Of a DNA stretch of 64,000 nt, positions 7,854 through 19,647 are shown one piece after another; position 1 is the stretch's first letter, and every line of letters starts with the position of its first letter. This stretch comes from Clostridia bacterium (GTDB lineage: Bacteria; Bacillota; Clostridia; Oscillospirales; CAG-272), in the NCBI GenBank assembly GCA_017453205.1, contig JAFTKO010000014.1, positions 1 through 64,000 of the forward strand, given 5' to 3'. Below the pieces are notes generated by a model that did not search any database, had not been told where the DNA came from, and was given only the letters and a program-made list of their open reading frames with translations. Position numbers and translations under genes: made by a program.

Positions 7854-10679
7854 TTAGTTTTCTTTCTTCTTGGTCAAAGCAACACCCATGCCAACGGTCA
7901 AAATTGCGATCACGCAGGTTGCGGAAATCGATGAGCCACAGCCCTTCTCTTCGTCAACGGGAGCGGGAGTTGTGGGGGCCTCGGTGGTGGGTTCGGTCAC
8001 AGGCTCGGTGTCTTGTGTACCGTTGCCTTCACCTTCACATTCACCTTCACCCTCACCTTCACCCTCACCTTCACCTTCGCCCTCGCCTTCTCCTTCACCT
8101 GTACCGGGGTTGGCGGCAAGAATCTCTTCCAAAATCTTTGCGGCAACCGCCTCAAGCGCCTTTTCGGCATTCACGGTGGGATAGTCACCGCTTACTGCTG
8201 TGAAGATGGTGTTATCCATATCGGAAACCGTGGTAAATACCGTGTCGCCCTTGAGAGCATCTGCGGAAACCTTGGCACATGCAACCAGCTCCTCTGCGGT
8301 AAAGCCCTCGGGAGAGACCTTGGAGATAATGTCGCCGTCATAGACCGTATAGTTGTTGCTACCGATGATGATCTTGCTCAAGTGACCTGCAATTTGACCA
8401 ACACCGCTGACAGATTCCTTGGCATCGATGGTGGTGTCATGGGTGATGACACCGAGGTTGATACAGTTGTTAATGGTGGAAGCCGCCACGTGACCTGCAC
8501 GACCAGCGATACCACCTGCCATATTGTAGCCGCTGGCAGTCTTGAGACCGACATTGTACAGTGTGATATCACCGTAGTTGACACACCAATCGATGGCAAC
8601 GGCTGCACTGTTAGAGCCTTGAATACCGATGATACCGCCAAGGAAGTTGCTGACGGTCAGCTCGTTTTCGGGACGGTTGGTAATCTTACCGAAGTTCTCG
8701 CAATAGCTAATGGTCAAGCATCCGCCCGCACCGACGATACCGCCGCCGTAGCAGAGACCGTAGATAGTGGAATAGTTCTTACAAGCAACAATGTAGTTGC
8801 CGCTGGTACCGCTGGCATTTTCACCTGCAATCTGGTCCATACGTCCCGCAATACCGCCCGCTTGGGGAGAGGAAATGGAGGTCACGTTGGAAACACAGTT
8901 GGAAATCATGCTTGCATAAGAGTCGGAAACCGTGTTCCAGCCGATGATGGCACCGCCGCGTCCCACAGCATATACCTCGGTACCGGTTACGGTGAGGTCA
9001 CAGATATTGGCGTTCTTACCGACGCCGAACAAGCCTGCATAACTTACATTTGCGCTTTGGGGAATGTTCAATCCGCTGACGGTCTTGCCGTTGCCGTCAA
9101 AGATGCCCTGGAACGCCTTAGTAAAGTCCTTACCGTCAGCGCTCTTACCGATGGGTGTCCATGTCTGATTATTGAGGTCGATATCCGCAGTCAGTACAAA
9201 GTACAAGCCCGCAGTCGCGTCGGTTCCGTTATTGGTAAATCTTGCAAGATATGCAAGCTGAGGAGCGGTTGCAATCTGATAAGGATCGGTCTCGGTACCC
9301 GTACCGCCGGCAAATGCCTCGGCATAGCCGATACCGTCCCAAGGACCTGTCTTATCACCGGTGTTCTCGATGACAAGGTCGATCTTATAATAGGTAGATA
9401 CTGCGGTGACATTGAGAATCGGAAGCTGATCAGCCGCAAAGGTGTAGAAATCCGCATAGGTGGTGGTGTCATCCGCATCGGTGGGATTGACCTTGTCGGT
9501 CATGACCAGCTTGCTCTTAGCGGCAGAGGTTCCCTTGAGGTCGGCAATGGAGTTGATTTCCACATTATTCTCGGCAACCACAACAGCTGTTGCACCGTCG
9601 TCGACATCCTCGAGGATAGCAACCACATTGTCGCCCTTTTCATATGCGTTATTCTTGACGGTGAGCGCCTTTCCCTTGGTGTTACCGACAAGCGCCGCAG
9701 ACTGAGTAGCATCCTTTACGGTCAAGTCGCCTGTGTTGTAGGAGTTGGTAAGCGTAAGGTTGGTGCTTGCATGAGCGGGGTTTGCCTGACCGACGATACC
9801 GCCGGCAAAGGTGGTTTCCGCAAGCGTGGGAATGTTGATATCACCGGTATTGCCACAAAGGACAATGACGGTGTTATCGTTGGTAACATAGCCCGCAATA
9901 CCGCCGGCTTTGATTGCGGATTGAGCCACACTGATGGTATCGGGCGTGGTGATGTTACCGCTGTTGGTGCAGTAACGGATCTCCGCGCCGATGGCACAGC
10001 CGATGATACCGCCGTAGTACATGGTCTTATCCTTGTTCTGACCGACAATGTTCACAGCATTGGAGCACGCGATGAACTTTGCGCCTGCCGCGTTACGTCC
10101 GACAACGCCGCCGCAGTTGTAGCCGGTGATAAAGGAGTTTTCGTCAACGGGCTTGACATGGCAGTCGAACAGGGTGGTTCCCGTGTTTGCCTGACCGAGG
10201 ATACCGCCGGCTCTGGTGGCACCGGTAATGCTCTTTACCGTCAAATTGATGTGCTTGATGGTGGCACTCTGCGCATAACCGAACAAGCCCGCGTAGGCAA
10301 CACCGGCAGCCTCGTCAATGAACAGATTGCCGATGGTCTTGTAGTTACCGTCAAAGATACCGTAAAAGATCTTACCGTTGTCACCGATCGGGGTCCAAGA
10401 ATAACCTGCAAGATCAATGTCGGCGGTCACTTTAAAATAAGTATCCGCGTAGCTTTGACCGCCCGCAACATTTTTAGCAAGAAGTGCAAGCTGAGCGGCG
10501 GTAGCGATCTGATAGGGGTCGGTGTCCGTACCGGTACCGCCCGCAAACTCGGTTGCGGCGTGATCGGTCCAGGTTTCGGGCTTTTGTTCTTCATTCTCAG
10601 CAAACGCCGTGGGAACAGCGATGACAACCATACTCAGCAGCATGGTAATGACCAAACAGATGGAAAGTAATTTTTTCAT
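7854..10679 (-). CDS. GLUG-repeat surface protein with C-terminal GC-x-SS anchor
   Basis: 941 aa. Signal peptide (MKKLLSICLVITMLLSMVV...AFA). Two large repeats each begin with an FAGGTGTxTDPYQIATAxQLA(L/Y)LA segment and contain many GLUG units (YAGLFGYAQ, GGILGQAN, GGIAGYVT, GGIAGRAG). Such repeats form beta-helix-like stalks in bacterial surface proteins. The C-terminus has a Gly-Glu dipeptide tract, a Thr/Pro/Glu linker, then GCGSS, a hydrophobic helix and a TKKKEN tail. No LPXTG motif is present, so an alternative anchoring signal is likely. ATG 10679 is preferred to the longer frame because AGGA lies 8 nt before it. It follows the 45-codon gene by 34 bp. Ligand or enzyme activity unknown. 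Confidence 0.85.
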   Translation of the reverse strand: MKKLLSICLVITMLLSMVVIAVPTAFAENEEQKPETWTDHAATEFAGGTGTDTDPYQIATAAQLALLAKNVAGGQSYADTYFKVTADIDLAGYSWTPIGDNGKIFYGIFDGNYKTIGNLFIDEAAGVAYAGLFGYAQSATIKHINLTVKSITGATRAGGILGQANTGTTLFDCHVKPVDENSFITGYNCGGVVGRNAAGAKFIACSNAVNIVGQNKDKTMYYGGIIGCAIGAEIRYCTNSGNITTPDTISVAQSAIKAGGIAGYVTNDNTVIVLCGNTGDINIPTLAETTFAGGIVGQANPAHASTNLTLTNSYNTGDLTVKDATQSAALVGNTKGKALTVKNNAYEKGDNVVAILEDVDDGATAVVVAENNVEINSIADLKGTSAAKSKLVMTDKVNPTDADDTTTYADFYTFAADQLPILNVTAVSTYYKIDLVIENTGDKTGPWDGIGYAEAFAGGTGTETDPYQIATAPQLAYLARFTNNGTDATAGLYFVLTADIDLNNQTWTPIGKSADGKDFTKAFQGIFDGNGKTVSGLNIPQSANVSYAGLFGVGKNANICDLTVTGTEVYAVGRGGAIIGWNTVSDSYASMISNCVSNVTSISSPQAGGIAGRMDQIAGENASGTSGNYIVACKNYSTIYGLCYGGGIVGAGGCLTISYCENFGKITNRPENELTVSNFLGGIIGIQGSNSAAVAIDWCVNYGDITLYNVGLKTASGYNMAGGIAGRAGHVAASTINNCINLGVITHDTTIDAKESVSGVGQIAGHLSKIIIGSNNYTVYDGDIISKVSPEGFTAEELVACAKVSADALKGDTVFTTVSDMDNTIFTAVSGDYPTVNAEKALEAVAAKILEEILAANPGTGEGEGEGEGEGEGEGEGEGECEGEGNGTQDTEPVTEPTTEAPTTPAPVDEEKGCGSSISATCVIAILTVGMGVALTKKKEN
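8026..8102 (-). repeat. Gly-Glu dipeptide-coding hexanucleotide repeat
   Basis: An imperfect run of a GGTGAA/GGCGAG-type 6-bp unit inside the surface protein gene. It encodes about a dozen GE pairs interrupted once by Cys (GECE). It acts as a spacer between the repeat domain and the anchor and could vary in length by slippage without breaking the frame. Confidence 0.8.
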
Positions 10680-10713
10680 GTTTTTTATCCTTTCTTTCAT
10701 ATAGGGTTTCGGA

Positions 10714-10851
10714 TCATGCAAGGATATCGTCGATGGAGATCGATCTCAGCGTGTCGCCTTGTGTGGACGCACTGAGTACATCGATCGTTTGAATGTCCTC
10801 TTCGCTCAAAAGTACTACATTGATCGAAGGTTGTGCATAAAGCTTTTTCAT
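10714..10851 (-). CDS. Small 45-aa peptide, paired with anchored surface protein (1)
   Basis: 45 aa, starting MKKLYAQPSINVVLLSEED and ending in SIDDILA. ATG 10851 has an excellent ribosome site (aaaggagga, 6 nt spacer), much better than a random ORF would have. It lies 34 bp downstream of the metallo-hydrolase stop and 34 bp upstream of the GLUG surface protein, so all are co-transcribed. A second peptide at 50614-50754 shares the pattern M-K-x-x-(Y/F)-x-x-P-x-x-x-x-x-LL-x-x-ED-(I/V)-x-(T/S) and the same position next to an anchored surface protein. No signal peptide, Cys or helix suggests a known role. It may be a leader peptide, a short exported peptide or a modified-peptide precursor; none is shown. 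Confidence 0.72.
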   Translation of the reverse strand: MKKLYAQPSINVVLLSEEDIQTIDVLSASTQGDTLRSISIDDILA

Positions 10852-10885: not shown

Positions 10886-12289
10886 TTACGTATTGTACTC
10901 GTCCCAAGGTGTCGAGGTGACGGCACCCGTGGAGAGGTCGATCATATGAACCGAGGCGGCATCCAAAATATGATCGGCGCCGATCGTATTCATAAGGTCA
11001 ACATTGATCTGATTGCTGAGACTTCCCTGTGCGGCAAGTCGGACGCGGCTTGCTTGCGGGAGAAGTGCGTAGGTGGGCGCTACCGTCTCGTATAAGAACG
11101 CGGTGGCATTGTGTCTGCGGTAGGTGTCACCCGTAATACCGTGGTGCGGCATAGTGACAATGTAGGAAGTCAGATACTCGGTGCCAAAGCGCTCACACAT
11201 CTTGTCAAGCAGGATGGCGGTCGCGTCTCCCGTGAGCATCACGGTCTTCCCCGATCCGTTTGTCGGCTTTAGGCGAACGACCATCGACATGGTATTGCCG
11301 TCGCCCTTCTCGCCCTTTGCCACAGCATCCTGTGCCAATTGGTTCTCATAGCCGATGACGGTAGGGACAAAATCCGTCATGGTGGAAAGAATCTCCATAT
11401 CCATACCCGGGAAGTGGAACACCTGTCCCGTGAGCGCCTTGTAGACGGGAACGCCCGCAAAGCCGGTCTGCCCGCTGTCGTTGGTCTCCAAGCCGATACC
11501 GACATAGATACGGTGGAACTCGGACTCGGCGGCGGATAAAAACTCGGTTTGCTCCTCGGTATCTACAATATTGTAGATCACGCTTTCCAAGGTGACATTG
11601 ATATCGTTACCGTAGTCTCCTCGGTTATATCTGACCGCAAACTGGTAAAATCCACCAACATGATCGGCGTGATGGTGCGAGAGAATCCACGCGCGGATGA
11701 CAATGTTGTTATCGTTGTTGGGATCACTGTCGGACGCCGCCAAGGATTTGAGCGTTTGATAGATCATTTCGGCGTTGACCGAATAGGAATTTCCGCCGTC
11801 ATAGACAAGAAAGCTTCCGTCCTCGAGCCGAACGATACCCGCAAGCGAACCGCTGGACTCGGTATAAGCGGGATTTTCTAAGGAGACCTCGTCAGCCAAG
11901 GTACCGTCCTCATCCAAGTCAGCAAGCGCGACATAAACCGCATCTGTGACCTTGGTATAGGTGGGGATTGTGGTTGACGGGAGGTTCACATTCTTTGCGG
12001 CGATCACTCGCGTGTCTCCCGAGCTCTCCGTAAAGTAAACATGAACCATGATCTGATCTGTGCCCTCGGTTTTTGTGTAGGTTGCAAAGCGGTTGACCAA
12101 ATCGGCATCACCGTCGGTATTGGTGATGGAATTGGTGGCGTACTCCGCAAAGCCTGCTTCTTCAAGAACCTCGAGGTAATTTTGGAACATTGCTTCGGTG
12201 GTACCCGAGACCGTCACTTGACTGTGACCGTCTCCGAGATCGGAGAGCGTCTGCTCCCCTCCCCAAAGGAAAGCGGGAACACCCGCCAA
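10886..12289 (-). CDS. Metallo-beta-lactamase-fold hydrolase (MBL 1), possibly made by -1 frameshift from the GLUG gene
   Basis: About 467 aa from the first TTG. The fold is shown by SHHHADHVGGF (HxHxDH zinc motif), VMLTGDA and TMPHHGITGD. These are metal-ligand stations of extracellular ComEC/phosphodiesterase-like MBL proteins. It is homologous along its length to MBL 2 (16548) and the C-terminal two thirds of MBL 3 (17857). No ATG or GTG exists in this frame upstream; TTG 12289 has no good ribosome site. Homology to MBL 2 continues 5' of the TTG (LIKPLAGVPAF against NFKQLSCLPTF), so translation probably enters earlier. The frame is -1 to the GLUG gene that ends at 12298, with GGGAAAC just before that stop. 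Entry by frameshift, by CTG 12301, or a sequencing error are all possible. Confidence 0.8.
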   Translation of the reverse strand: MAGVPAFLWGGEQTLSDLGDGHSQVTVSGTTEAMFQNYLEVLEEAGFAEYATNSITNTDGDADLVNRFATYTKTEGTDQIMVHVYFTESSGDTRVIAAKNVNLPSTTIPTYTKVTDAVYVALADLDEDGTLADEVSLENPAYTESSGSLAGIVRLEDGSFLVYDGGNSYSVNAEMIYQTLKSLAASDSDPNNDNNIVIRAWILSHHHADHVGGFYQFAVRYNRGDYGNDINVTLESVIYNIVDTEEQTEFLSAAESEFHRIYVGIGLETNDSGQTGFAGVPVYKALTGQVFHFPGMDMEILSTMTDFVPTVIGYENQLAQDAVAKGEKGDGNTMSMVVRLKPTNGSGKTVMLTGDATAILLDKMCERFGTEYLTSYIVTMPHHGITGDTYRRHNATAFLYETVAPTYALLPQASRVRLAAQGSLSNQINVDLMNTIGADHILDAASVHMIDLSTGAVTSTPWDEYNT

Positions 12290-12321
12290 GGGCTTGATCA
12301 GTTTCCCGAGATAACGTCCTC
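12273..12321 (-). promoter_or_regulatory. Candidate programmed -1 frameshift site
   Basis: Reading the minus strand: SD-like GAGGA (12321-12317), 9 nt, then the heptamer G-GGA-AAC (12307-12301) in the GLUG zero frame, then the TGA stop (12300-12298), 14 nt, then a perfect 5-bp hairpin gcggg-tgtt-cccgc (12286-12273). A heptamer of the X-XXY-YYZ form, an upstream SD-like stimulator and a downstream hairpin are the three known parts of bacterial -1 frameshift signals (as in dnaX). The product of a shift would read ...VISGN-LIKPLAGVP..., joining the GLUG protein to MBL 1. Efficiency cannot be judged from sequence; GGGAAAC is not the best bacterial heptamer. Confidence 0.5.
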
Positions 12322-14814
12322 GGCGTTCACGTAGGTCAAGGTTTTTGTTTGGCAGTAAACAGCATCTGTCGAGCCATTCAGCGTGTAATAAGGCGTGATG
12401 GCAAAGATGTAGCCATCCGCAACGTCGGTAAGACCGGTAACGGTAAGCGCCACGATGTAATCAGCGTTCAGCGAGGACGCCGACAATGTGCTGTCCCCTG
12501 CCTTTACGGAAGTATAGACCGTCGTCAAAGGCTCGGTGGTGTAGCTGCCGTGTGCATCATCCGATTTGCGGAGAAGAATGATCTGAAATCCGACCGAGTC
12601 GTAAGCGGTCAAATCAACATCACCCGTTCCGTCACCCATACCTGCAATGATACGAACCTGTGTTGCATCCCCTTCAAAGGTCTGCCAACCCTTGAGGTCG
12701 ATGAGGGTTTCGTTGGTATAGGTTACGGTTTTATCGGTAGCAACTTCGCCAACAACATTTTCCCCACAGTTGGCAATCGTAATATTCGCGCCGGTATAGC
12801 CGAGGATTTCACCAACCGTATTTATTGTGGGAAGTGTACCTACATTAAAGCAATTGGCAATACCGCAAGAACCGGGATTAATACGCCCTGCAATACCGCC
12901 CGCGTAGTTTGCGGTTTCGGTAGATACCATTTTCACGTCACCATAGTTTCCGCACCAAGCAATTTCAGTCGCGTTGGTCGCCGCATATCCCATGATACCG
13001 CCAATATAAACATTACAAGTTGTTGTACCCGTATAATCAAAAGATGTTACCGTTGCAAAGTTGTAGCAGTTTTCGATGCTTGCACCGATAGAAGTACCGA
13101 TAATACCGCCGATATTTTGTGTAGTGTTATCAATTGCACTGACAGGACAAGCATTGCTGCAATTGGAAATCGTCAAAGTATCCGTTGTGGTAGAAGCAGT
13201 TCTTCCTACGATACCGCCGGCGTTGGGAGCCTCGATAACAGAGGTAGCATCAACTGCGGTTACATGACAATTTGTAATGGTTGCACCGTTGCTGACCTGT
13301 CCCACAATACCACCCGCACGGGTAGAACCGGAGATCGAAGCAACAGAAACATTCAAGTTCTTAATCGTTGCACCGTTTACATAACCAAACAAACCTGCAT
13401 AAGTAGTGCCCGATACAGACACATTGGAGAGTGTTTTGCCGTCGCCGTCAAATGTTCCCGCAAATGCGTTGGTCGAAGATTGAGAGATGGGAAGTTGGAA
13501 AGGATCCGCATTGAGCATAATATCAGCAGTCAGTTTTACAGTTTTTCCTGCAAAAGCATTGCCCATATTACTGAAAGCTGCAAACATTGTTACATCAGCC
13601 GCACTTGCAAGTTCAATCGTATCGGTACTATACCAATGATTGAAACCGGCATTTGCAAGCGGTGTCAAAGAAGTTACGAAATACTTGGAAGTATCACATC
13701 CGTCTGCTTCATCAAGCTTAGCAAGAACAGTGTCGGTTGTAACGCCTGTTACAAAATTAGTCGAAGTTGTTGTACCGTTTTTTTGTAAACCGAATACCGT
13801 TGTATTGGTACTGGTGCTTGCGCAATGATTTACAGTTGCAGTATTTCCGGAAGTCCAAGCGCCTACTCCGTTAATGGCACCTTGTGCATACAAGCCGCTA
13901 AGCGTTCCGGTATTGATACAATAATCGATTGAGGAATTTCCGACATCAAGCCAATCCAACGCACCGGCAATTCCACCAACAAAACGATTGTTGCTGGATC
14001 CCGCACCGGAGCCAACTTGAGGTGAAAGACTCGCATTATTTACACAAGCAATGATCCATGCACCGTTAGACCAACCTACAATACCGCCATTAAACAAAAA
14101 ATATTTCAATATAGAAGATGTCCATGTTGTATTGTTATTGATGGTTGTGTTACTATCGGTCGTGCAACTAATGATTTGGGTGGGTTCATTGCCACCAACT
14201 TTGGCGAAACCAACAATACCGCCTACCACATAACCGTAAAGATCATTGTCAACCGAATGACAGTTCACAATAAGAGAGCCCTTCGTTGCAAAACCAACAA
14301 TTGAACCAACATTAGTATAACAGGTGGTAGAATTAGATATACTTGTTGGCAAAGCAGTCGCACTGATTGTAGCACCGGATACCGTCAAATTCATGATGGT
14401 TGCCTGTGCAATTTGTCCAAACAATCCTGCCGCATATTGGGTAGTAGCCGTATTGGTGACCGTAAAGTTGCTAACGGTATAACCGTTACCATCAAAAGAT
14501 CCTCTGAAATAGGCATTGGTATTGCCTACCTCACCAATCGGTGCCCAAGATTTTCCGTTCAAATCGATATTAGCCGTCAATTTGTAGAACTCACCGCGGC
14601 AATTATCGGTTTTCACTCTGTTGGCAAGCCAAGCCAAATTTTCGGGGGTGGAAATTTCATAAGGGTCGGCGGCGGTACCGGTACCGGTGGTGGGTTTCGT
14701 GATCGTCGTTCCGTCCCATCCTTCCCCTTCCGCCGTCACAACAACGGGAACAGTAAGCGCAATCATTGCGAGAGAGATCAAAAGTAAGAGGCTACGTTTG
14801 AGTAGAATTTTCAT
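12298..14814 (-). CDS. GLUG-repeat secreted protein without its own anchor
   Basis: 838 aa. Signal peptide after MKILLKRSLLLLISLAMIAL, then two GLUG blocks, the first opening with GTGTAADPYEISTPENLAWLA and both carrying repeated YAGLFGYVN / GGIVGQVS / GGIMGYAA units. The last 130 residues (from about GWQTFEGDATQVRI) look like a beta-sandwich domain. Unlike the homologous GLUG protein at 7854, there is no GE tract, GC-x-SS motif or membrane helix at the end; it stops at VISGN, inside the candidate frameshift site. ATG 14814 is used; AAAGGA is 12 nt upstream, a long spacer. Co-oriented with SBP 2 upstream (41-bp gap). Binding partner unknown. Confidence 0.82.
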   Translation of the reverse strand: MKILLKRSLLLLISLAMIALTVPVVVTAEGEGWDGTTITKPTTGTGTAADPYEISTPENLAWLANRVKTDNCRGEFYKLTANIDLNGKSWAPIGEVGNTNAYFRGSFDGNGYTVSNFTVTNTATTQYAAGLFGQIAQATIMNLTVSGATISATALPTSISNSTTCYTNVGSIVGFATKGSLIVNCHSVDNDLYGYVVGGIVGFAKVGGNEPTQIISCTTDSNTTINNNTTWTSSILKYFLFNGGIVGWSNGAWIIACVNNASLSPQVGSGAGSSNNRFVGGIAGALDWLDVGNSSIDYCINTGTLSGLYAQGAINGVGAWTSGNTATVNHCASTSTNTTVFGLQKNGTTTSTNFVTGVTTDTVLAKLDEADGCDTSKYFVTSLTPLANAGFNHWYSTDTIELASAADVTMFAAFSNMGNAFAGKTVKLTADIMLNADPFQLPISQSSTNAFAGTFDGDGKTLSNVSVSGTTYAGLFGYVNGATIKNLNVSVASISGSTRAGGIVGQVSNGATITNCHVTAVDATSVIEAPNAGGIVGRTASTTTDTLTISNCSNACPVSAIDNTTQNIGGIIGTSIGASIENCYNFATVTSFDYTGTTTCNVYIGGIMGYAATNATEIAWCGNYGDVKMVSTETANYAGGIAGRINPGSCGIANCFNVGTLPTINTVGEILGYTGANITIANCGENVVGEVATDKTVTYTNETLIDLKGWQTFEGDATQVRIIAGMGDGTGDVDLTAYDSVGFQIILLRKSDDAHGSYTTEPLTTVYTSVKAGDSTLSASSLNADYIVALTVTGLTDVADGYIFAITPYYTLNGSTDAVYCQTKTLTYVNAEDVISGN

Positions 14815-16547: not shown

Positions 16548-17816
16548 TTACTCTAACTTCATCTCCCCGAGGATCGCTCCGTCGGAGAGGCGCACGGTGC
16601 GGGGAGCATCCGCCAAGAGGATGGCAGGGTGGTATTTCTCTTGCAGATAGACATTGACCTCGTTGGTGGTAAAGCCTTGGTCGCCCAAACGCGCATCCGA
16701 TGCCGAGGGCAGGAAGCAAATGTCGGGGCGGGTATAATCGTAAAAGAGTCTTGTCGCGTTGCGTGCGCGGTAGGTAGGCTTGTTGAGTGCGTGGTGCGGC
16801 ATGGTCATAATGTCGGTTTTGATGTGATCCTCAAACCGCAGACACATATCGTCAAGCAGTGTGCAGTTCGCATCTCCCGTCAGCATCAGATTTTTGCCGT
16901 TCTCGGTAAGAAGACGGACCACGATCGAGGTCGCGTTGCCGTCGCCCTTGTCCTTTTCCGCATCGGGAAACTCATAACCGATAACGCGCGGGACAAAATC
17001 CGACATGCAGGAAAGCACCTCCATTCGCACCCCCGGGAAGAAGAACTCCTGTCCCGTGAGGCATTTGTAAACAGGCGCCTCGGGGAAACAGGCAATACCC
17101 TTGGCAATGCGTTCAAAGTCAGTATCTCCGCAATACAGACACTCGCTCTGCTCGGGTGTGTTGCAAAGATTGTAGATAAAGCTCTCCACGGTCACGCCCG
17201 TAAAAATGCCCTTCTCCACCGCCTTGACAAACTGGTAAAAGCCGCCTGTGTGGTCCCAGTGCAAATGCGAGAGTACCCAAGCGCGGATGACAATCTCATC
17301 GTCCTTTGCCAGTTTTTTGAGCACCTTGTAAATCTGCTCGCCTGCGGGAAAATTGCCGTACCCGCCGTCGTAGAGGATAAAAGTTCCGTCCTCAAGCTGT
17401 AGCACGCCGCCCAGCGAGTCGCCCGTGGGGTTGCCCTCTTTTCCAAGAGAGGCAAGCGCGGTATAACTAACCTCGCAAACCTTTTCGTATGTAGGTGTTT
17501 CCCGTGCGGGCAAAAGCGCGTCAAACGCCGCGACGATGCGCGTCTCACCGGAGTACCCCGCGCGGTAGATATGTACCATATGATTTTGTTGCGTCAACGT
17601 GTAAGAGGTAAAGTTGCCCTTGGACATCGAGGCGTAAAGAACATACCCCGCGCCCTCGAGTACCGTTATGTAATTTTCGAGCATCTCGGCGGTCGTCTCA
17701 AAGACCGTAATCTGTGCATAATCGTCGCCGATGTCGCAGATCTTTTCTACCCTGCCACCCTCAAACGTCGGGAGACAGGACAGCTGTTTGAAATTTTCGA
17801 TTTCTTGCATGGACAT
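16548..17816 (-). CDS. Metallo-beta-lactamase-fold hydrolase without signal peptide (MBL 2)
   Basis: 422 aa. ATG 17816 (MSMQEIENFKQ) is preceded by AAGGAGA at good spacing. HLHWDH at residues 184-189 is the zinc motif, followed by MLTGDA and TMPHHALNK. An N-terminal 100-residue region (ICDIGDDYAQITVFETTAEMLENYITVLEGAGY) is shared with MBL 1 and MBL 3 and is not part of the core MBL fold. No signal peptide or membrane segment is seen, so it would stay in the cytoplasm, unlike MBL 3. Substrate unknown; no lactamase-specific or RNase-specific feature was recognised. Upstream MBL 3 ends 41 bp before. Confidence 0.8.
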   Translation of the reverse strand: MSMQEIENFKQLSCLPTFEGGRVEKICDIGDDYAQITVFETTAEMLENYITVLEGAGYVLYASMSKGNFTSYTLTQQNHMVHIYRAGYSGETRIVAAFDALLPARETPTYEKVCEVSYTALASLGKEGNPTGDSLGGVLQLEDGTFILYDGGYGNFPAGEQIYKVLKKLAKDDEIVIRAWVLSHLHWDHTGGFYQFVKAVEKGIFTGVTVESFIYNLCNTPEQSECLYCGDTDFERIAKGIACFPEAPVYKCLTGQEFFFPGVRMEVLSCMSDFVPRVIGYEFPDAEKDKGDGNATSIVVRLLTENGKNLMLTGDANCTLLDDMCLRFEDHIKTDIMTMPHHALNKPTYRARNATRLFYDYTRPDICFLPSASDARLGDQGFTTNEVNVYLQEKYHPAILLADAPRTVRLSDGAILGEMKLE

Positions 17817-17856: not shown

Positions 17857-19647
17857 TTATTGCGTGATCTCCAATGTCGACATATTGATGGTTCGCACGG
17901 CATCAAGCAATACCATGGTGGGCTTGTAGGTATTTACCAAATAAATGTTGATCTCGTTGGTGATAGCAGCGGTCTCATATGCCAATCTCTTGTTGGATGC
18001 CGAGGGCAAAATGGCAATCTTGGGCTGAACGCTGTCGTAAAGATACTTGGTACCGTTGCGACGGCGGTAGGCGTCGCCCGTCAATCCGTGGTGCGGCATA
18101 GTCATCACATCGCTCTTGAGATAATCGGCGCCAAAGCGGTCGCACATCTGGTCAACCAAAATATTGACCGCGTCGCCCGTCAGCATCAGCGTCTTGCCGC
18201 TTGCAAACTTCATTCGGTGGATCACTGTCATGATGTTGCCGTCGCCGTTGGTCTTGTCAACGTCCTTAGTCTCGTAGCCGATGACCTGCGGGACAAAATC
18301 GGACATGCACGAAAGAATTTCCATCTGCATCCCCGGGAAGTAGAACACCTGTCCCGTGAGACACTTGTATACGGGGATATCGTAGCTGAACTTTTTGATC
18401 GATGCCGCCACACCGTCAAACTCCTTGCGGGCATTGGGAAGGAACTCGATCTGCTCCTCGGTGTCGCAGAAATTGTAAATAAAGCTTTCAATCTTAATAT
18501 TGGAAGCATTCACGTAGGAGGAGCTTGCGTAAGCATTGAATGCGCCCACATGGTCGCCGTGCTGATGTGAGAAGATCCATGCGCGCACCACGATGTTGTT
18601 TTTGTCGGGTGCCTTTTTCACCAGTTGAGAATAGATTTGCGTTGCGGAGGCGGCGTTCTTGTTTCCGCCGTCGTAGATGATAAAGCTACCGTCCTCCAGT
18701 TGGACAATACCGCCAAGCGCATCACCCGACACTGTGCCTTCGGCAGTCATGACCGCCAGAGTGGTGTAAGTCGCGTCACAGACCTTGGTGTAGGTCGGCG
18801 CCTCGGTTGAGGGCAGCAACGCGTCTTTGGCTCCGATCACACGGACCTCTTTTTCGCAATCGGTGTAATAAGTGTGCACCATTTGATTATCCTTTTGATA
18901 GGTGGCAAAATGGTTGTTGCCAATGGTGTTGGTGGTATACTGTGTATAGCCCGCCGCCTCCAAAGCGGTTTTGTAAGCATGGAAGGCATCGAGCGTGGTC
19001 TCGCCGTAAAGCACCTGTGTATGTGAGTCACCCAGGTCGGCAATCTTTTCCACCTTGGTGTTGCGAATGACGGGAACACCATCCAAAGCATCGAGCAGAT
19101 CGACCTCTGCGGAGCCGATCATCTCAAAGCCGTCGGTCATGGTCAGTGTGCCGTTTTCGTTGTATCTCGAAACATACGAAATAAACGCGTTGACTGCCGC
19201 TTGCAAGCCCAGATCCTCGCTTGCCGCGACAATGATCTTATTGCCCGCAACTTGAACGATGTATTGGTTGTGCGCAAGCTTGGCGATCGCCGCGTCGACC
19301 TCGTCATAATCAACAAAGCCGATCAATATCTCAACGGTGGAGGCGTCGTAGTTCTCACCCGTTAGGCGCGCGTCCTTGGAGGCCTTGATGCTCTCGGCAC
19401 CGCTGGCATTGAGCAGATAGGAGCGCAGTGCCAAAACCTGTGCGTACTCGTTTTCGGTGTTGGACGCGGGATAGACCAAGGTACCGTGGAAAGTACCGTC
19501 GGAAAAGAGTGTGACCGTCTGCTTGGGTGCGTCGGTCTCGTCCCCCGCGGTCGAGGTGTCGGTATCGCCGCCGTCTTTGGTACAGGCAACCAATTGGAAC
19601 AGCATAACCAACGACAAGAGGATCAGCAAAAAGCGACTTTTTTTCAT
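17857..19647 (-). CDS. Lipoprotein with glycosidase-associated N-terminal domain and MBL-fold domain (MBL 3)
   Basis: 596 aa. Lipobox LVAC (Cys22), then an acidic/Thr linker. Residues about 40-190 hold a domain with EILIGFVDYDEV and NKIIVAASEDLGLQAAVNAF; the EIL(I/V)G-x-(T/V) pattern also occurs twice in the protein at 55459 and is like the N-terminal domain attached to alpha-glucuronidases and related surface proteins. From about residue 205 the MBL module begins (GVPVIRNTKVEKIADLGDSHTQV), with HQHGDH, LMLTGDA and TMPHHGLTGD. So the hydrolase should act outside the membrane. First gene of the locus A minus-strand run; ribosome site AAAGGAGGG; divergent from the AraC gene at 19963. Confidence 0.82.
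   Translation of the reverse strand: MKKSRFLLILLSLVMLFQLVACTKDGGDTDTSTAGDETDAPKQTVTLFSDGTFHGTLVYPASNTENEYAQVLALRSYLLNASGAESIKASKDARLTGENYDASTVEILIGFVDYDEVDAAIAKLAHNQYIVQVAGNKIIVAASEDLGLQAAVNAFISYVSRYNENGTLTMTDGFEMIGSAEVDLLDALDGVPVIRNTKVEKIADLGDSHTQVLYGETTLDAFHAYKTALEAAGYTQYTTNTIGNNHFATYQKDNQMVHTYYTDCEKEVRVIGAKDALLPSTEAPTYTKVCDATYTTLAVMTAEGTVSGDALGGIVQLEDGSFIIYDGGNKNAASATQIYSQLVKKAPDKNNIVVRAWIFSHQHGDHVGAFNAYASSSYVNASNIKIESFIYNFCDTEEQIEFLPNARKEFDGVAASIKKFSYDIPVYKCLTGQVFYFPGMQMEILSCMSDFVPQVIGYETKDVDKTNGDGNIMTVIHRMKFASGKTLMLTGDAVNILVDQMCDRFGADYLKSDVMTMPHHGLTGDAYRRRNGTKYLYDSVQPKIAILPSASNKRLAYETAAITNEINIYLVNTYKPTMVLLDAVRTINMSTLEITQ

Follow-up and report, generated by a model that had tools for sequence, protein, structure and literature searches.

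The 64,000-nucleotide stretch analysed here (the window) lies on contig C7 of G000, a metagenome-type genome of 2.29 Mb in 44 contigs that is 73% complete. On the minus strand it carries, in order, the genes for MBL3 and MBL2, a gene that by inspection resembles those for solute-binding proteins, the gene for a GLUG-repeat protein, the MBL1 frame, and a second GLUG gene (Table 1). The product of this second GLUG gene (window 7854-10721, minus strand, directly after MBL1) terminates with a hydrophobic segment and a tail of basic residues. The first GLUG protein matches PF07581 (24.5 bits, cut-off 20.5) and PF05342 (31 bits, cut-off 27.7), and the end of its C-terminal domain, which we call IgL, is similar in sequence comparison to other IgL C-termini. 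MBL1 matches PF00753 (26.8 bits, cut-off 22.7) and retains an intact metal site, HHHADH (HxHxDH); inspection agreed with the sequence-only reading that it lacks its own signal peptide. MBL1, MBL2, and MBL3 group together, with a support of 0.92, in a tree built from 138 domains.

Table 1. Features at and around the GLUG–MBL1 junction (positions in the window)
Feature	Positions	Strand	Remarks
GLUG-repeat protein, 845 aa	12298..14835	-	Signal-peptide-like N-terminus by inspection
IgL, C-terminal domain of GLUG protein	12313..12654	-	Name given in this study
GAGGA	12317..12321	-	Shine-Dalgarno-like; 9 nt 5' of heptamer; direct reading
Putative slippery heptamer G_GGA_AAC	12301..12307	-	GLUG frame
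TGA stop	12298..12300	-	GLUG frame
CTG overlapping the stop (CTGA)	12299..12301	-	Rival start codon of MBL1
TTG	12287..12289	-	Sole ATG/GTG/TTG ahead of domain; no Shine-Dalgarno match
5-bp GC hairpin GCGGG/CCCGC	12273..12286	-	14 nt past heptamer
MBL1	10886..12300	-	Metallo-beta-lactamase-fold hydrolase; -1 frame; stop included
MBL2	16548..17816	-	Paralogue without signal peptide; ATG with AAGGAG
MBL3	17857..19647	-	Lipoprotein-type exported paralogue (by inspection); ATG with AAGGAGG

Anatomy of the GLUG–MBL1 junction

A GLUG frame ending in G-GGA-AAC-TGA, followed by an MBL frame offset by exactly -1 with neither ATG nor GTG ahead of its domain, had been described from the sequence, and both observations were borne out when the minus strand was read. 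The GLUG ORF closes with the residues V-I-S-G-N, and G_GGA_AAC, a motif of the X_XXY_YYZ type in the upstream frame, directly precedes the TGA. The MBL1 frame, free of stops between 12460 and 10889, contains no ATG or GTG before +83 nt after the GLUG stop; its first GTG (12217) and first ATG (12190) both lie within the domain. The candidate starts near the domain are the CTG that overlaps the stop and the TTG at +11, which is indeed the only TTG before the domain, and no ribosome-binding site was matched at a usable distance before this TTG. The best external guides to the start of MBL1 are lipoprotein-type homologues from other genera, among them that of G135, in which MLKPLAGVPAF aligns with LIKPLAGVPAF of MBL1; the similarity thus extends back to the first -1 codon past the heptamer and takes in the four codons ahead of the TTG. 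The homology reported 5' of the TTG is therefore real (LIKP) and best against G135, but it is short, and weaker against MBL2 and MBL3. Because the GLUG end is typical of its domain and the MBL1 homology starts at the first -1 codon, the frame change falls at the boundary between a first protein that seems complete and the beginning of the next.

The same anatomy could belong to two translationally coupled genes, with reinitiation at the CTG or the TTG giving a separate, non-exported MBL1. A 4-nt overlap such as CTGA is common in operons and by its nature gives a -1 offset, the GLUG protein seems to end at a natural terminus of its domain, and the CTG aligns with the Met codon of G135. We nevertheless consider coupling somewhat unlikely, as the window stop has neither an ATG or GTG within about 10 nt nor a Shine-Dalgarno match at a usable distance, and initiation at the TTG would exclude the conserved LIKP from the product. 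Coupling would also leave the heptamer unexplained: in 450 kb of G000, a heptamer stands directly at the stop in 2 of 297 gene-like ORFs, the GLUG gene included, and within the last 15 codons in 29 of the 297.

Stimulators are frequent at frameshift sites without being obligatory. Of the two said to occupy known bacterial positions, GAGGA does so, and the hairpin, by the usual rule, does not. According to passages of PMC4066793, Shine-Dalgarno-like stimulators lie 6-17 nt upstream and hairpins 4-10 nt downstream of the motif; the 9-nt spacing of GAGGA is within the former range and the 14-nt spacing of the hairpin outside the latter, while part of PMC5009743 describes a minority of stimulators at 12-15 nt. 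The GCGGG/CCCGC stem appears in the minimum-free-energy fold of a 60-nt stretch only, other pairings being favoured in stretches of 75 and 105 nt, and in the 105-nt fold GAGG pairs with the TTG region, as can occur at coupled starts. Fold z-scores at the junction vary from -0.4 to -2.9 with the stretch chosen; those of the first 75 nt downstream (-1.8 to -2.1, near the 6th percentile when set against 137 stretches from inside coding sequence) are not decisive. As to the heptamer, the same passages of PMC4066793 describe G_GG.A_AA.C as of low efficiency in E. coli and the re-pairing of AAC to AAA as non-cognate, and list G_GG.A_AA.C among the next commonest heptamers of IS1/IS3 after A_AA.A_AA.G and A_AA.A_AA.A.

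In-frame and out-of-frame MBL copies in related genomes

MBL genes of the MBL1 type have multiplied locally. By our reading of the tree, the loci in the window, on contigs C29 and C5 of the same genome, and in G024 each include three kinds of copy: lipoprotein-type, standalone, and tied to another exported protein. The last kind is an in-frame fusion in C29 (886 aa), G024, G002, G025, and G065, and lies out of frame in the window, C5, G017, G027, G029 (two copies), and G030. Ordinary ATGA overlaps precede MBL genes of the same type at L075, L080, L097, L110, and L145, which favours coupling. Two matches in this genome, L005 and L006 (G000:C29:63461-64429 and G000:C37:66564-67532), have identical scores on two contigs, which suggests a duplicated stretch or unresolved strain copies. 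No match to MBL1 above 44% identity was present outside the locus among the matches listed from 35 genomes of the genus, nor among those listed from samples of 395 family genomes (E up to 1e-30) and 345 order genomes (E up to 1e-40), and a related-locus search of genome contigs and viral contigs gave no relative. Comparison of homologous loci thus gave no orthologue of the window junction; comparable -1 junctions bear other heptamers.

The earlier statement that this hydrolase module exists as part of an exported protein stands for in-frame fusions of an exported protein, IgL, and MBL in C29 and its relatives. GLUG is not the common element, however: of nine proteins tested, upstream or fused, none has a PF07581 match at E 0.01, whereas the window protein does, and the proteins upstream of out-of-frame or fused MBLs are repeat-type by eye. 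Judging from the sequences, the element shared ahead of the hydrolases is the C-terminal domain, of a type that we call FFG or IgL.

In-frame fusions bring in a further alternative, which we regard as unlikely, namely that GLUG and MBL1 formed one such fusion that an indel has put out of frame, whether by recent mutation, phase variation, or assembly error. By our count, 29 residues separate the domain end from the MBL start, near the 19, 27, and 27 residues in fused proteins, and the incompleteness and fragmentation of the genome also favour this alternative. On the other hand, the last 60 nt of the window junction have no homopolymer run of at least 6 (the longest is A5), and the frame is broken past a natural-looking terminus but before MBL homology sets in. 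In a coding-frame survey of 450 kb of G000, which is about a fifth of the genome on contigs chosen for MBL or IgL matches, 27 adjacent pairs had no good start, and four of them, those with both coding scores above 40, were read individually. Two look like antisense shadows (our reading), and the remaining two are GLUG/MBL1 and another MBL pair, on contig C5. Errors striking at random should not single out these MBL junctions, and the finding that the only strong startless pairs are two MBL pairs sets back random assembly error as the sole cause; a genuine mutation or phase variation limited to them may, however, be involved. The value of the C5 pair as proof of -1 frameshifting was itself weakened, since its TTG start gives an N-terminus of about the length of a standalone paralogue (our count), and the Phe-Phe behind its T6 run belongs to the domain end.

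Composition was modelled on 60 exported-type domains (those more than 120 residues into an open frame) and 37 standalone genes, hand-picked by anatomy; with leave-one-out, 57 of the 60 and 35 of the 37 were assigned correctly. MBL1, with one Cys in 458 residues, scores 0.986 as exported-type, and MBL2 scores 0.26 when left out of training. Other scores are 0.994 (C5 MBL), 0.992 (G027), 0.980 (L108), 0.951 (L100), 0.940 (G017), and 0.505 (L107). An earlier, smaller model gave MBL1 0.991 and 0.996 and agrees on MBL1, C5, and G017, but its 20-residue form gave 0.445 for L100 and 0.03 for L107, so that scores are unsteady for some relatives. The composition of MBL1 would fit export as part of the GLUG protein, and it argues against a separate cytoplasmic product at a locus that already has a standalone copy. 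Its value as proof of fusion is weakened by G027, L100, and L108, where an ATG lies at the stop and the score is also 0.95-0.99 (L100 earlier 0.445); since these pairs score alike, ancestry may explain part of the composition.

Shifted hydrolase frames at FFG and IgL C-termini

As no orthologue of the junction was available, the survey turned instead to both types of C-terminal domain seen ahead of such hydrolases, FFG (alignment A1) in two genera and IgL (alignment A2) in one, using part of the matches listed together with loci already identified. The query alignments included known cases: A1 contained L077, L145, L158, L100, L107, L108, L175, and the place of L221 (as L160), and A2 contained the window. 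Each repeated end entered the count a single time, and at least 400 nt of downstream sequence was required (FFG, 89 to 84). Among the resulting 155 distinct C-termini (84 FFG and 71 IgL), a shifted frame that stays open for 100 codons or more crosses 30 (19 FFG and 11 IgL). A canonical heptamer occurs in the last 12 codons of 10 of these 30 and of none of the 125 others (Fisher 1.8e-8), with 6/19 versus 0/65 for FFG and 4/11 versus 0/60 for IgL. By offset, the heptamer is present in 10 of 17 ends at -1 and in none of 13 at +1 (Fisher 0.001). When the five heptamer cases known beforehand (the window, L077, L145, L158, and L099) are removed, 5/25 versus 0/125 remain (9e-5). Wider limits give 10/17 at -1, 1/13 at +1, and 2/125 without a shifted frame (20 codons), and 10/17, 2/13, and 5/125 (30 codons). 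By our reading, the seven -1 ends without a heptamer comprise two lipoprotein-type genes that each have an independent ATG and ribosome site, a phosphatase-type gene whose ATG is at +86, and four short frames unlike coding sequence. These data show that, among the surveyed proteins, heptamers associate specifically with -1 hydrolase junctions.

Reading by hand gave 19 contiguous coding pairs, 10 at -1 and 9 at +1. According to part of a frame-transition survey (PMC3711429), an ATG or GTG near the stop marks translational coupling and homopolymer runs mark phase variation. The former, present no more than 10 nt from the stop in 9 of these pairs (L145, L299, L290, L317, L129, L108, L100, L107, and L300), favours coupling, and A or T runs of at least 7, found at L099, L145, L158, L299, L371, and L300, favour a broken or phase-variable fusion. 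The window junction has neither an ATG or GTG at the stop nor a long homopolymer run. T-runs of 6-7 also occur at the +1 junctions L100, L108, and L300, the last having T_TTT_TTG 16 codons before its stop; polymerase slippage or indels would account for such runs as readily as slipping ribosomes. That all 10 heptamer cases are nevertheless at -1, and that the out-of-frame state is kept in the related pairs L175/L221 and L100/L108, speaks against broken fusions.

The hydrolases reached out of frame are of several kinds. By Pfam they are EEP phosphatase-nucleases at L158, L299, L317, and L290 (L129 and L324 below cut-off), GDPD at L175, Lactamase_B at L307, and BNR_2 at L371; L302 gave no match. 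L371 (G000:C10:9400-11850) repeats the window geometry (X_XXA_AAC_TGA) with another enzyme in the same genome: the last residues of its IgL domain are EVKKN, at A_AAA_AAC_TGA, and the BNR module follows in the -1 frame, which has no ATG, nor any GTG before +20 nt. In its paralogue L378 (G000:C26:2050-10100; 50.5% identical), IgL and BNR_2 share one frame. The A9 tract at the C10 junction also allows polymerase slippage or an indel. At L158 (4835-5833, minus strand; G320:C78), the FFG end of an exported repeat-type protein carries T_TTT_TTT ahead of a -1 EEP phosphatase-nuclease with a TTG at +14, a GTG at +44, and no ATG nearby. L145 (2389-4112, plus strand; G027:C5) combines T_TTT_TTT, a 7-nt spacer, a 10-bp hairpin, and an out-of-frame MBL, a better-looking frameshift signal than that of the window, but it also has an overlapping ATG (ATGA).

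Frames at +1 include an MBL after an FFG domain at L307 (332-1693, plus strand; G320:C61), without ATG, GTG, or TTG from the stop to +121 nt, and GDPD after FFG at L175 (1987-3030, minus strand; G320) and L221 (1880-2374, plus strand; G368). Over the 84 nt past the stop, L175 and L221 differ at 3, 2, and 17 positions by +1-frame codon position, with 9 non-synonymous differences in 68.5 sites and 13 synonymous differences in 15.5. Right from the stop, the GDPD +1 frame is thus under purifying selection as protein, and this pair is the clearest sign of out-of-frame translation in the group. An ATG occurs at +43 in L221, whereas L175 has no ATG, GTG, or TTG before +85 nt; this selection and the startless frame of L175 together make out-of-frame translation across such a stop likely somewhere in the group. 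Since the GDPD case is +1, it supports recoding in the group and not the -1 heptamer itself.

Interpretation and relation to known systems

We tentatively favour programmed -1 recoding of GLUG and MBL1 as the most likely explanation of the window junction, with coupling from the CTG or TTG and a broken or phase-variable fusion as serious rivals. The two would form one recoded gene, in which most ribosomes would stop at the TGA and release a GLUG surface protein with a natural-looking terminus, and a minority would slip by -1 on G_GGA_AAC and read on to give an exported GLUG-MBL fusion. MBL1 would then fill a surface slot beside MBL2 in the cytoplasm and the lipoprotein MBL3. Ribosomal slippage as the mechanism, its rate, and export of the fusion are what we infer from the sequence. 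The original proposal of a -1 frameshift giving a secreted fusion is partly supported. It gains from the in-frame fusions, the exported-type composition, the -1-specific heptamers, and the C10 geometry; it loses from the want of an orthologue with the heptamer, the distant hairpin, the weakness of the motif in E. coli, and the ATG or GTG at several comparable stops.

The window anatomy belongs to a recurrent arrangement, and the pattern across the family merits closer attention than the window by itself. It is possible, if somewhat doubtful, that the family recodes at the stops of exported repeat-type proteins, attaching MBL, EEP, GDPD, and BNR sialidase-like hydrolases to some of its surface molecules, at canonical heptamers for -1 and at other sites for +1, alongside cytoplasmic and lipoprotein copies of the enzymes; the window would be the G_GGA_AAC_TGA form. 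If so, recurrent frameshifting at surface-protein ends would offer a novel means of adjusting how many surface molecules are plain and how many bear an enzyme, and some hydrolases that resemble cytoplasmic orphans would be exported. The ten -1 junctions, with several different heptamers, form a directly testable set. Among the papers listed from one full-text library, no title or abstract opening dealt with this subject.

In bacteria, the best-known cases of -1 frameshifting are those of mobile elements and of a few genes such as dnaX. The window resembles the IS1/IS3 and dnaX systems in its X_XXY_YYZ heptamer (G_GG.A_AA.C in IS elements), its Shine-Dalgarno-like element 9 nt upstream, its -1 offset, and the C-terminally extended product predicted for GLUG-MBL1. 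It differs in that GLUG is a chromosomal surface-protein gene rather than one for a transposase or polymerase, the hairpin is further off, and the case is known from sequence alone. The window shares the 4-nt overlap of ATGA-type coupled genes, but has CTG in place of ATG, no ribosome-binding site, and an exported-looking MBL1 that lacks a signal peptide. Like phase-variable surface genes with homopolymer tracts, it involves a surface protein and a domain in or out of frame, but its junction has no long homopolymer tract. The in-frame exported repeat-IgL-MBL proteins, such as that of C29 (L075), have the same order of C-terminal domain and MBL and a similar linker length; the C29 protein, in contrast, is encoded by one open frame, and its repeats fall short of the Pfam GLUG model.
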